Positions 6,787-10,275 of a stretch of 34,294 nt of DNA are shown here, piece after piece. This DNA is from Nitrosomonadales bacterium (GTDB taxonomy: Bacteria > Pseudomonadota > Gammaproteobacteria > Burkholderiales > SG8-39), in NCBI GenBank assembly GCA_005240145.1, contig SBAS01000065.1, positions 1 to 34,294 on the forward strand, read 5' to 3'. The notes beneath the pieces were generated by a model. The model was not told the DNA's origin. It did not search any database and saw only the letters and a program-made list of their open reading frames with translations. A program made the position numbers and the translations under genes. Position 1 is the first letter of the stretch. Every line of letters begins with the position of its first letter.

Positions 6787-8361
6787 ATGCGCATGGTCCG
6801 CATTATCGGCTACACCTTCATGGCGCTGGTCCTCGCCGGGGGTTGGGCCTTCATCTACTGGCAGTCGAGCGCGGTGGACCTTGCCGCGGTCGAAGGCGCG
6901 CGCGCCTCGCTCGCCGAGCTGCGCGCCGCGGACGCGGGCTGGAACCAGCAACTGGTGAGCGCCCAATTGTCTGCGCGCGGCGCGCCAGGCGCCCAAGCGC
7001 GCCTCGTCGCGCCTTCCCATCGCTACCGGCTCGCCTACGCGAAGCTCGAAGTGCGGGCGCTGCGCCTGGGCGATGCGCAGGTTGGCCGCGAACTGGCGCA
7101 GCTGAAACGCTCTTTCGAGGAAAAAGCCGCGTTGCTGGCGCGCCTTGCTGAAGCGCAGAAGGCCGTGGCGGAGGCGCAGCGCGCCGAACCCGCCGATGAC
7201 GCCAAGCTCGCCGCGCTGCGCGCGAGCAGCGACGAGCTCTTCGGCCAGGCCTGGTTCGCCACGACCACCGGGCCGCGCCTTGAAACACTTGGCCGCGCCA
7301 TCGACCGCGCCTTCGACGCTGCGCTCACCGAGGCCGAGTTCTACCGCGTCGGCCTCCTCCTCTACTCGGGCTTCCTGCTCGCGGTGCTGGCGTTCCTCGT
7401 CTGGAGCCTGGACCAGCGCAGTCGGCAGCTGCGCGAAGCCAATGAAACCCTCGAAGCGCGCGTGCGGGACCGCACACGCGAACTCTCCGGCGCGCTCGCC
7501 AAGCTGAAGGAATCCGAGGCGATGCTGATCCAGAGCGAGAAAATGTCCTCGCTCGGCCAGATGGTGGCCGGCATCGCGCACGAGGTGAACACGCCGCTCG
7601 CGTACGTGAAGTCGAGCCTCGATGCCGTCGGCAAGAGCGTGCCGCGCGCGGGCAGGCTGGCAACGGAAACCGAGCGGCTGCTCGCGCTGCTTGCGGCGCA
7701 AAACGCCGACGAAGCCGCGCTCGGCGCGCAGTTCGCGCTGGTCCGCAGCCTGGTGGCGGAGCTGGGCGGCAAAAGCGGTGGGCGCAGCGCGCTCGAAGAC
7801 CTCGAACGCCTGGTGAAGGACGGGCTCTTTGGTATCGACCAGATTTCCGAGATTGTCGCCAACCTGAAGAATTTCAGCAGGCTGGATCGCGGCCTGGTCG
7901 GCGAATGCGACCTGCACGAGGGCATCGAGAGCTCGATCCGCATCGGCCACGCGCAACTCGAAAAGCGCGTCGTGCGCAAGCACTTCGGCAAGATCCCGCG
8001 CGTAACCTGTTCGCCATCGCAAATCAACCAGGTAATCCTCAACCTGCTCGCCAACGCCGCGCAGGCGACGCGCGAGGGCGACGGCACGATCACGGTGTGC
8101 ACCGCGATGCGCGATGCCGCGCACGTCGTAGTCGAAGTGGCCGACAACGGTTCGGGCATCCCGGCGGATGTGCTGCCGAAGATTTTCGATCCGTTCTTCA
8201 CCACCAAGGCGGTCGGCAAGGGCACCGGGCTGGGGCTTTCGGTGAGCTACAAGATCATCGAGAACCACGGCGGCAGACTGGAAGTGCAGTCCAAGCCCGG
8301 CACCGGCACGATTTTCAGCATCGTGCTGCCGATTCATCCGCCCGCCGCGCCGGCCGCGTAA
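6787..8361 (+). CDS. Membrane sensor histidine kinase
   Basis: A 524-residue sensor kinase. Transmembrane segment 1 (about residues 6-25) and segment 2 (about 187-207) flank a mostly helical periplasmic domain of about 160 residues rich in Ala/Leu/Glu. A cytoplasmic coiled coil (208-250) leads to the H-box [11 protein letters not shown] with phospho-acceptor His265. Next come an N-box ([15 protein letters not shown]), a G1 box (VADNGSGIP), an F box (IFDPFFTTK) and a G2 box ([14 protein letters not shown]). All catalytic motifs look intact. The ATG at 6787 is preceded by GGGGAA; a reading from 6703 lacks that site. The signal is unknown. The gene 6 nt downstream encodes a Ser/Thr kinase with receiver domains, a likely phosphotransfer partner. 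Confidence 0.93.
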
Positions 8362-8367
8362 TTTCCT

Positions 8368-10275
8368 ATGGCGCCGGAAAAGGTCGGCAGGTACGAGATT
8401 TCGGGCGAACTCGGCCGCGGCGGGATGGCTATCGTCTACCGCGGCCTCGATCCGGTGATAAGGCGCGCCTCGGCGCTCAAGGTCATCTGCAAGGCGGAGC
8501 TGGATGCGCACGAAGCGGCGCGGATCCTCGAGCGCTTCAAGCGCGAGGCGCAGGCCGCCGGCAGCCTGCAGCACCAGAACGTGGTCGCGATCTACGAATA
8601 CGGCGAAGACGACGCCTACGCCTGGATCGCGATGGAGCTCATCGAAGGGCGTTCGCTGCGCGACCACATGCTGGGCGGCTGGCGGCCCGACCTGTCCCAA
8701 CTGCCCACGGTCCTCGAGCAGCTGCTCGAGGCGCTCGACTACTCGCACGGCCGCGGCATCGTGCATCGCGACATCAAGCCCGGCAACATCCTCATCAGCG
8801 CCATGGGCGAGGCGAAGATCAGCGATTTGGGCATCGCACGCATCGAGCGCTCGCACCTGACACAGCAGGGCGAAGTGCTGGGCACCCCCTACTACATGGC
8901 GCCGGAGCAGTACGAAGGCCAGGAGATCGACGAGCGCACCGACATCTACTCCGCGGGCGTGATCGTCTACGAGGTACTGTGCGGGCGGCGGCCCTTCGAT
9001 GGCCAGGGCGGCAACCTGATGCGCCAGATCCTGCAGGAGCCGCCGCCGCCCGCCTCCACCCACGAGCCGCGCCTGCCGGTCACCATCGACATGGTGCTGG
9101 CGAAGGCGATGGCGAAGAAACCGCAGAACCGTTACCGCGGCGCGCGCGAGTTTCTCGACGCCCTGCGCCACGCGTTTCCCGGCGGCGCCGCAGGGACGAA
9201 AACCACGATGCTGCCGCCGCTCGCCGGTAACGTGGGCGCGCTGCGCCGCGCGCTCGGCACGCCGGCAGCGCCGCCAGCGCCGCCAGCGCCGCCAGCGCTA
9301 CCAGCGGACAAAGCCGTTGATAAAACACAACCCATCATCGCGCCGGTGGCCGCGCCGGCGAAGTCCAAAGTACGCAAGCCGGCAATTCTTTTCGTCGACG
9401 ATGAAGAACGCGTACTGAATGCCCTGAGCTACCTGTTCCGCGACACCTATGAAGTCGAGGTCGCGAACGGCGGCGCGCCGGCGCTCGAGCGGCTGCAGGC
9501 GCGGCGCTTCCACGTCCTCGTCAGCGACCAGCGCATGCCGGAAATGCCGGGTGTGGAGCTGTTGCGCCAGGCCAAGGGCATCGCGCCGGGCACGGTGCGG
9601 CTGCTGCTCACGGGCTACTCGGACCTCGCCGCGATCGTGGGCTCGGTAAACGAGAGCGAGGTGTTCCGCTTCGTCTCCAAGCCCTGGCAGGAGGAAGACC
9701 TGCGCGCCACCGTCGCGGAAGCGGTGGACGTGGCGATCGCGCTTGAAGCTGCGGCGGCCGGCCCCGCTCCGACGCTGCCGCCCGACGCCGCGGTGCTGGT
9801 GCTGGGCGAGGCGGCGCTCGCTCGCGCAGCACGCGAACTGGCAAAGGACAAATACCGCGTGCTCGAGGCGGCCAGCGTGGACGCGGCGCTGGAGATCCTC
9901 GCCGCCGAGGAAATCGCGACGCTGATATGCGACCTGGACCTCGGCGCCAACGACCCGGCGGCGTTGCTGCGCATCCTGAAGAAAGGCTCGCCGCAGACGC
10001 AACTCATCAGCATCTCGGCGGCCTCCGACTCGGAGTTGATCATCCGCCTCATCAATGAAGCACGCATCTACCGCTTCCTGAAGAAACCGGTGAACTTTTC
10101 TCTGCTGCAAGCCGCGCTGGGTGCGGCGCTGCAGCGCTACGCGCGGCTCGCCAAATCCCCCGCGTTGCTGCGCGCCGAATCCGCCAATAAGGCCAAGCAG
10201 GATGCGGCCGAGGATTCGATCCTGGGACGCCTGAAGTCGCTCGGCGGGCGCTTCGCCGCCGCCTTCAAGAACTGA
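8368..10275 (+). CDS. Hybrid Ser/Thr protein kinase with two C-terminal receiver domains
   Basis: A 635-residue soluble protein. Residues 8-270 form a Hanks-type kinase: glycine loop GELGRGGMAIVY (13-24), Lys38 in ALKVI, HRDIKPGN (133-140, catalytic Asp135), DLG in place of DFG (153-155) and APE (178-180). A Pro/Ala linker (about 295-335) carries a tandem APP repeat. REC1 (about 338-455) has the acidic pair Asp344/Asp345, phospho-acceptor Asp387 in SDQRMPEMPG, Thr415 and Lys438 (SKPW), so it looks functional. REC2 (about 475-590) keeps Asp522/Asp524 and KKP but has lost the N-terminal acidic pair (VLVLGEA), so it is probably not phosphorylated. It follows the histidine kinase by 6 nt, and phosphotransfer from that kinase to REC1 is inferred. 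Confidence 0.92.
   Translation: MAPEKVGRYEISGELGRGGMAIVYRGLDPVIRRASALKVICKAELDAHEAARILERFKREAQAAGSLQHQNVVAIYEYGEDDAYAWIAMELIEGRSLRDHMLGGWRPDLSQLPTVLEQLLEALDYSHGRGIVHRDIKPGNILISAMGEAKISDLGIARIERSHLTQQGEVLGTPYYMAPEQYEGQEIDERTDIYSAGVIVYEVLCGRRPFDGQGGNLMRQILQEPPPPASTHEPRLPVTIDMVLAKAMAKKPQNRYRGAREFLDALRHAFPGGAAGTKTTMLPPLAGNVGALRRALGTPAAPPAPPAPPALPADKAVDKTQPIIAPVAAPAKSKVRKPAILFVDDEERVLNALSYLFRDTYEVEVANGGAPALERLQARRFHVLVSDQRMPEMPGVELLRQAKGIAPGTVRLLLTGYSDLAAIVGSVNESEVFRFVSKPWQEEDLRATVAEAVDVAIALEAAAAGPAPTLPPDAAVLVLGEAALARAARELAKDKYRVLEAASVDAALEILAAEEIATLICDLDLGANDPAALLRILKKGSPQTQLISISAASDSELIIRLINEARIYRFLKKPVNFSLLQAALGAALQRYARLAKSPALLRAESANKAKQDAAEDSILGRLKSLGGRFAAAFKN
9271..9297 (+). repeat. Three perfect tandem 9-bp copies coding Pro-Pro-Ala
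   Basis: The unit CCGCCAGCG occurs three times in a row inside the linker of the hybrid kinase and codes for the APPAPPAPPA stretch. A partial copy precedes it. Copy number could vary by slippage without breaking the frame, changing linker length. Confidence 0.85.

Follow-up and report, generated by a model that had tools for sequence, protein, structure and literature searches.

The window, i.e. the whole stretch of DNA that was analysed, comprises 34,294 nucleotides (nt) of contig SBAS01000065.1 (assembly GCA_005240145.1, Nitrosomonadales bacterium) and belongs to a genome of 3.24 Mb in 130 contigs. On its forward strand it carries two adjacent genes that place a histidine kinase (HK) next to a Ser/Thr kinase (STK) with two receiver domains. 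The first, P0001 (6787..8361, + strand), encodes a sensor HK of 524 amino acids (aa) with two predicted transmembrane (TM) segments, a predicted extracytoplasmic sensor and the HisKA and HATPase_c domains, as identified by hydropathy and Pfam. The second, P0002 (8368..10275, +), encodes a protein of 635 aa. Based on Pfam and structure models it consists of a Hanks-type STK domain, a disordered linker, receiver 1 (REC1), receiver 2 (REC2) and a basic helical tail. With the HK stop at 8361 and the P0002 ATG at 8368 the genes are spaced by 6 nt, and the coordinates, gene order and spacing given in an earlier note on this DNA are thus confirmed. The domain search proposed there returns the HK domains and, in P0002, Pkinase at residues 9-257 together with two Response_reg stretches. 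Pkinase and Response_reg are each found in 57/57 proteins of an aligned set, from which five loci (L037-L041) were excluded as repeat genomes; these were used in structure alignments. Pfam at E ≤ 1 gives no DNA-binding domain in P0002, in agreement with the earlier note, and hydropathy gives no TM segment. An AlphaFold model of P0002 from nine sequences (mean predicted local distance difference test score, pLDDT, 72.2; predicted template modelling score, pTM, 0.48) contains the kinase, a low-confidence linker at residues 273-335, REC1, REC2 and a low-confidence C-terminal helix.

P0001 scores above the Pfam cut-offs for both HisKA (29.7 bits) and HATPase_c (100.3 bits). Hydropathy peaks at residues 6-24 and 188-206 mark the two predicted TM segments, and the stretch from the first of these through the extracytoplasmic sensor region to the second (residues 6-206; 6802..7404, +) is DAHL-like. 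The DAHL match between the TM segments reaches 21.1 bits, under the 38-bit Pfam cut-off; in the aligned set 49 of the 57 HKs have a DAHL match with E ≤ 0.01 (lowest E-value 5.2e-26), judged by E-value only and not by per-protein cut-off. Conservation points to His265 in the H-box HEVNT (7579..7581, +) as the predicted autophosphorylation site: H265, E266 and T269 are each kept in 57/57 aligned HKs, and H265 in all 84 distinct genes (that of the window plus 83 others, L256 and L257 being repeats of L182 and L186). Likewise, N419, N423, D453, G455, G457, G477, G479 and G481 of the HATPase_c N and G boxes are kept in 57/57 HKs. P0001 contains the HExxT motif, which is characteristic of HKs that can remove the phosphate from their regulator as well. 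In NCBIfam the HK core is best matched by T2SS_HK (232.7 bits versus a cut-off of 450). ARAGORN calls a tRNA-Glu (ctc) at 7646-7739 (+) within the HK coding sequence; this sole tRNA call of the window is most likely a false positive.

REC1 (residues 340-449; 9385..9714, +; Pfam) has a full receiver active site. Its predicted phospho-acceptor, Asp387 (9526..9528, +), is invariant in 84/84 distinct proteins, and the same is true for D344, D345, T415 and K438; the active site of the receiver that looked functional in the earlier note is thus complete in every protein compared. Among eight regions compared REC1 is the most conserved, with a mean pairwise identity of 0.640 versus 0.277 for the HK sensor and 0.193 for the linker. 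Taken alone it resembles single receivers, including those of HupR (Z 20-22), and its best receiver-family match in NCBIfam is a NosR-family model (196.5 bits versus a cut-off of 400).

REC2 (residues 475-596; 9790..10155, +), assigned from fold models and residue counts, is pseudo-receiver-like. In the window Gly480-Glu481 occupies the acidic-pair position, i.e. the first acid (DD1) is lost and one acid kept, and Asp522, Ser550 and Lys573 are retained. The second receiver had been described as degenerate for lack of the acidic pair; its site is indeed incomplete here, but only one acid is lost. Across the 84 proteins D522 is kept in 84, Thr or Ser stands at position 550 in 80, and position 573 is Lys in 76 and Arg in 8. 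The acidic pair was counted from the start of the β1 strand (with one protein, L146, shifted by one by hand) in 57 proteins: 7 have both acids, 35 retain just the first, 9 (including the window) just the second, and 6 have neither. Thus, 50/57 proteins have lost at least one acid, but the 7 with both have a full five-residue site, and degeneracy is the usual state without being a family-wide trait. In published pseudo-receivers, according to the part of PMC12632262 that treats them, D, T and K are kept in about 65% each and the second acid (DD2) is lost far more often than DD1. The REC2 Asp is kept far more strictly here, and the window has lost DD1, not DD2. Both features suggest that REC2 may have a role beyond that of a spacer, and a low level of phosphorylation of this domain is possible.

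The kinase domain (residues 9-257; 8392..9138, +; Pkinase 162 bits) is PknB-like. It has the Gly loop, the catalytic Lys (K38), HRD (133-135), the catalytic-loop Asn (N140), the Asp of the DFG motif (D153) and APE (178-180), with DLG replacing DFG and the Asp retained. K38 and E60 are kept in 84/84 distinct proteins and D135, N140 and D153 in 83/84. The best Foldseek match of the kinase part is the PknB kinase domain (E 3.3e-23, 37% identity), and the best profile matches are PknB, StkP and PknA. The linker that follows (residues 273-335; 9184..9372, +) is rich in Pro and Ala and predicted to be disordered (pLDDT < 50). At the C-terminus a basic helical tail (residues 598-635; 10159..10272, +) is predicted with low confidence (helix with pLDDT < 50); its charge is net positive in 51/57 proteins, with a median of +5. 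Compared with its own genome, P0002 has 10 further kinase-domain matches and 4 further receiver matches, and no other open frame in that genome was found to combine the two. In nine kinase-only relatives (46-52% identity) Pfam detects no receiver at E ≤ 1e-4. The window's genome also has three PP2C_2 matches, all on other contigs, which could provide a counterforce to the P0002 kinase. At G000:C121:12158-19209 three large Hanks-type kinase open frames are clustered on one strand, the 1013-aa one having an internal TAG.

The pairing of the two genes is universal among the homologues compared. A homologous HK lies directly upstream on the same strand in 56/56 homologues at 52 loci, with gaps of -4 to 145 nt (<20 nt in 44/56, with 12 overlaps of 4 nt). 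In 27 further distinct homologues, taken from 29 shorter loci of which two are repeats, an HK is also found upstream on the same strand; here presence, strand and order were scored and the gap was not measured. Taken together, this arrangement is present in all 84 distinct genes, which far exceeds what chance would produce. Searches with P0002 (E ≤ 1e-100) and with the HK (E ≤ 1e-70) match the same 18 of 61 relatives at the same places, and no genome with one partner only was found among these 61 at the two thresholds. The HK and STK trees have 34/54 internal splits in common; 37 and 34 splits are well supported in the two trees, and 25 of these are common to both. Four genomes (L153, L175, L176, L185) have a tandem HK-STK-HK-STK arrangement, and the HK and STK trees agree in dividing the duplicate copies between two clades. 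The shared splits and the co-sorting duplicates indicate that the pair has been inherited and duplicated as one unit. The same-family members L148 and L150 are placed among other families by the HK tree as well as the STK tree, which suggests that the pair has probably also been transferred as one unit. The window proteins are 78-81% (STK) and 73-75% (HK) identical to their three nearest orthologues. The idea, put forward in the earlier note, that the HK and STK proteins would form one signalling unit is strongly supported by the universal pairing, the agreement between the trees, the loss of both genes together and the invariance of the REC1 site and the phospho-His. One of the two kinases in each of the four tandem genomes has HQD for HRD. 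A natural HK-STK fusion, suggested by open frames of 1119-1340 aa, was rejected: the matches sit in separate frames at every locus inspected, and the long frames are merely GC-rich open sequence 5' of the STK start.

Full-length homologues were found only within the order. P0002 homologues are present in 43/399 sampled genomes of the order and in 43/74 and 11/28 genomes of two of its families; in the sample of the family with 43 matches the 13 lowest-scoring ones were left out, three of these being partial or at contig ends. In three wider samples (one of the class and two overlapping ones of the phylum) no full-length homologue was found outside the order, with the reservation that the order, class, phylum and profile searches scored at most three candidates per genome and may miss rare members. 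The class sample gave 1/370 genomes, the window's own. The phylum sample gave 3/397: the own genome, a second member of the order, and a genome in which the match is confined to the kinase part. A phylum profile search matched 18/398 genomes, of which the own genome and one of the same order are full length, 15 match by the kinase part only, and one (G498) by the receiver part only. These results agree with the earlier statement that the kinase-REC-REC order is uncommon, and the distribution check that accompanied it shows an order-restricted architecture as far as sampled. In-frame stops were seen in two STK homologues (G1171:C71:110466-112445 and G1174:C23:143223-145220), each with one TAA inside the match. 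Kinase-receiver fusions as such appear in published response-regulator censuses. A literature search by title and abstract, incomplete in coverage, gave no paper recognisable as dealing with either this gene pair or a protein of the Hanks kinase-REC-REC type. In a classification of prokaryotic kinases (PMC2877116) the word 'receiver' is absent from the main text, the domain list being placed in File S5.

We then consider how the two receivers might act. Modelled alone, the tandem-receiver part (mean pLDDT 81.3, pTM 0.74) forms two alternating β/α receiver folds. Foldseek ranks entries of PleD, the Caulobacter REC - pseudo-REC - GGDEF protein, best over both domains (1w25, E 9.7e-14, 278 columns, root-mean-square deviation (rmsd) 10.2), and VIA-align gives the PleD entry 9g86_A a Z of 20.6 over 251 residues (rmsd 9.7), although its rows are mostly single receivers on REC1 and hardly probe REC2. 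P0002 thus shares with PleD a canonical receiver followed by a pseudo-receiver, and PleD is its best structural match across both receiver domains. In contrast to PleD, the output of P0002 is an N-terminal Hanks-type kinase rather than a diguanylate cyclase, and its HK is encoded next to it throughout the set examined. Since Pfam finds no GGDEF, P0002 may work like PleD, yet it is not a PleD. As far as PMC12632262 covers it, phosphorylation of the PleD receiver changes the contacts between receiver and pseudo-receiver, leading to dimerisation and output activity. For PknB, sections of PMC12189002 describe activation via dimerisation of the kinase domain.

The pair is probably a dedicated two-gene phospho-signalling unit running from HK via REC1 to the STK with a PleD-like switch. 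In this scheme the membrane HK would read an extracytoplasmic signal through its DAHL-like sensor and autophosphorylate at His265, and the phosphate would pass to Asp387 of REC1. Phosphorylated REC1 would alter its packing on REC2 and hence the oligomeric state, as in PleD. The altered oligomer would in turn switch the PknB-like kinase domain, most likely by joining two kinase domains, and the switched kinase would phosphorylate Ser/Thr substrates. As the HK has the HExxT motif, it may also reset the switch by dephosphorylation. Genomics supports this His-Asp-Ser/Thr reading well, and we infer each of its biochemical steps. Gating of the STK by phosphotransfer, as proposed in the earlier note, is likewise what we infer as the natural reading of the arrangement.

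The direction of the switch could also be the opposite, with phosphorylation of REC1 shutting the kinase off and the kinase working while the HK is at rest or acts as a phosphatase. HupR receivers, one of them titled 'inhibitory phospho- state', are among the nearest folds of REC1. A further precedent is SypE of Vibrio fischeri (serine kinase - REC - PP2C). In the account that the consulted part of PMC3610818 gives, the SypE receiver governs serine phosphorylation of another protein, presumably with this opposite sign: the serine kinase is thought to be off, presumably by receiver phosphorylation, upon RscS overexpression. However, SypE has an HPK-like kinase and a PP2C-like phosphatase domain, neither of which is found in P0002 by Pfam, whereas P0002 has a true Hanks-type kinase and two receivers. 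Neither HupR nor SypE shares the output domain of P0002, and the sign is not readable from sequence. We consider this inverted switch unlikely.

Several observations weigh against a His-Asp-Ser/Thr relay with a PleD-like switch. Superposition on PleD gives an rmsd of about 10 Å over both domains, which means that domain type and order match PleD while the packing does not; the relative placement of REC1 and REC2 in the model either differs from PleD or is poorly predicted. Mutual information with average product correction did not resolve covariation of the HK with REC1 (86 rows including two repeats, effective number of sequences 47). The 30 highest-scoring pairs are spread across kinase, REC1 and REC2; the block means are slightly positive for REC1 α1 (0.101) and REC1 β5-α5 (0.267) and slightly negative for the matching REC2 blocks (-0.118 and -0.087). 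In the sister genome G008 (L146:5557-7365) HRD of the kinase is replaced by HGA, the catalytic-loop Asn by Glu and the DFG Asp by Gly, and the activation segment is shortened. Judged from its residues this protein is an apparent natural pseudokinase; Pfam still sees the kinase fold (84.6 bits). Its REC1 site is intact, as is the phospho-His of the neighbouring HK (HisKA 21.7 versus a cut-off of 26.9), and the pair sits on long branches in both the HK and STK trees. A dead kinase beside an intact HK and REC1 argues that Ser/Thr phosphorylation is not indispensable. Finally, a genome of the same class and another order (G498, L279:5314-7680) pairs an HK with a REC-REC protein that has no kinase domain. 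This HK (465 aa) has a marginal CBS match, HATPase_c, a HisKA score just under the cut-off and no DAHL match. The partner (314 aa) has two receiver stretches and is 39% identical over P0002 residues 344-624; its sequence shows a complete REC1 and, in REC2, Glu at the position of Asp522. This kinase-free form is one genome of 398, and no second stand-alone REC-REC protein of this kind was recognised in L086-L116, where L087 gave no match and the domains of the host proteins were not scanned. It nevertheless indicates that a sensor and a tandem receiver can exist without Ser/Thr kinase catalysis. The G498 pair adjoins purM/purN-like genes (named by eye).

These exceptions bear on the post-translational response that the earlier note expected from the missing DNA-binding domain. 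Such a response is plausible for the window, but the loss of catalytic residues in L146 and of the kinase domain in G498 suggest that Ser/Thr phosphorylation may not be the only output. They also bear on two further alternatives. The kinase might be constitutive, with REC1-REC2 and the basic tail controlling localisation or partner choice instead of catalysis; the roughly 60 disordered residues that link the kinase to REC1, the positive tail in 51/57 proteins and the tandem receiver without a kinase in G498 are consistent with this. Since the linker is also compatible with control by dimerisation and the tail model is of low confidence, we regard a constitutive kinase as quite unlikely. Alternatively, the flow might be reversed, the Hanks kinase phosphorylating the HK or the receivers on Ser/Thr and thereby tuning a His-Asp step whose output is the REC-REC part. 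Phosphorylation of response regulators by STKs has been reported in many bacteria, as portions of PMC6213207 and PMC12189002 describe, and HK and receivers persist where the kinase is dead (L146) or absent (G498). On the other hand, the catalytic residues of the kinase are intact in 83/84 proteins, and Pfam recognises no effector domain in the REC-REC part other than the kinase; reversed flow is therefore improbable.

Within the window's genus the pair occupies one junction, between yqgE and rubredoxin-thiD-hemL (window, L139, L140, L146 and L149); in the window yqgE and rubredoxin, both named by eye, lie on the opposite strand. The pair is present in 5/13 genomes of the genus. Of the 8 without a match, six are less than 90% complete, six have yqgE and rubredoxin adjacent with the pair missing, and one gave no yqgE match. 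In G007 (L220:2035-2471) a broken remnant comprising the end of REC1, parts of REC2 and the tail lies between yqgE and rubredoxin, demonstrating that the pair was formerly present and was lost, apparently by deletion. One might thus suspect that the pair is a dispensable, decaying accessory unit with little current function in this genus, in line with the six empty junctions, the G007 remnant and the pseudokinase of G008. However, the intact catalytic residues of the window, its two open frames and the identities of both proteins to the three nearest orthologues, given above, speak against this, and we hold decay to be highly improbable.

Elsewhere in the order a gene of a LivG/LivF-type ATPase cluster stands just before the HK in 19/52 loci and within one gene of it in 24/52; the cluster was named by profile at one locus only (L162), where the genes are best matched in NCBIfam by LivH, LivM, LivG, LivF and a branched-chain amino acid binding protein, all below curated cut-offs. 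The HK, by its predicted start, overlaps the preceding ATPase gene by 4-11 nt in L043 and L162-L167. Seven loci, all from one family, have a cbb3-oxidase neighbourhood: the genes downstream of the pair were identified, in L174, as a copper-type P-type ATPase and ccoN. A general function in liv operons was rejected, as no liv gene precedes the pair in the window's genus or at the seven cbb3-oxidase loci. The transporter is thus not a universal signal source, and the link is a lead for some lineages only. A more far-reaching proposal, which we put forward tentatively and hold to be doubtful, is that the transferable unit is the HK together with a PleD-like receiver/pseudo-receiver dimer switch, to which betaproteobacteria would have added the Hanks kinase as output. 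Where the pair follows a livKHMGF-type operon, the state of branched-chain amino acid uptake (or the transporter as a co-sensor) would set cytoplasmic Ser/Thr phosphorylation, and in some lineages the kinase would have turned into a pseudokinase scaffold or be absent.

The pair also differs from other known systems. P0002 has its nearest solved structures and profile matches in the PknB-type kinases, i.e. PknB, StkP and PknA, but has neither a PASTA match nor a TM segment and carries receivers in place of an extracellular sensor. Like the cyanobacterial HstK, which has an STK and an HK in one chain (title cited in PMC2176072), it unites both phosphorylation systems; there two kinases are in one protein, whereas the kinases of the window are separate proteins joined by receivers. 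T2SS_HK-like HKs and NosR/HupR-type receivers provide the best HK-core and REC1 matches, both below the family cut-offs, but Pfam finds no HD-GYP or sigma-54 output in the window pair.

Among response regulators that have an enzyme as output the pair is a conserved variant, and in the genomes sampled its distribution is lineage-restricted. The usual picture of two-component systems and Hanks-type kinases is one of separate networks with cross-talk as their point of contact. Since the genes are together in every case examined, these two major bacterial systems, a membrane sensor and a eukaryote-like kinase, seem to be directly interconnected: one sensor and one kinase, inherited and lost together, appear hard-wired. 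The input of a bacterial Ser/Thr kinase could then be set experimentally via a single Asp, and its substrates found by comparing the phosphoproteome of D387A with that of the wild type. In addition, the pair offers a test of whether a receiver/pseudo-receiver pair serves as a general dimer switch for outputs other than diguanylate cyclases.

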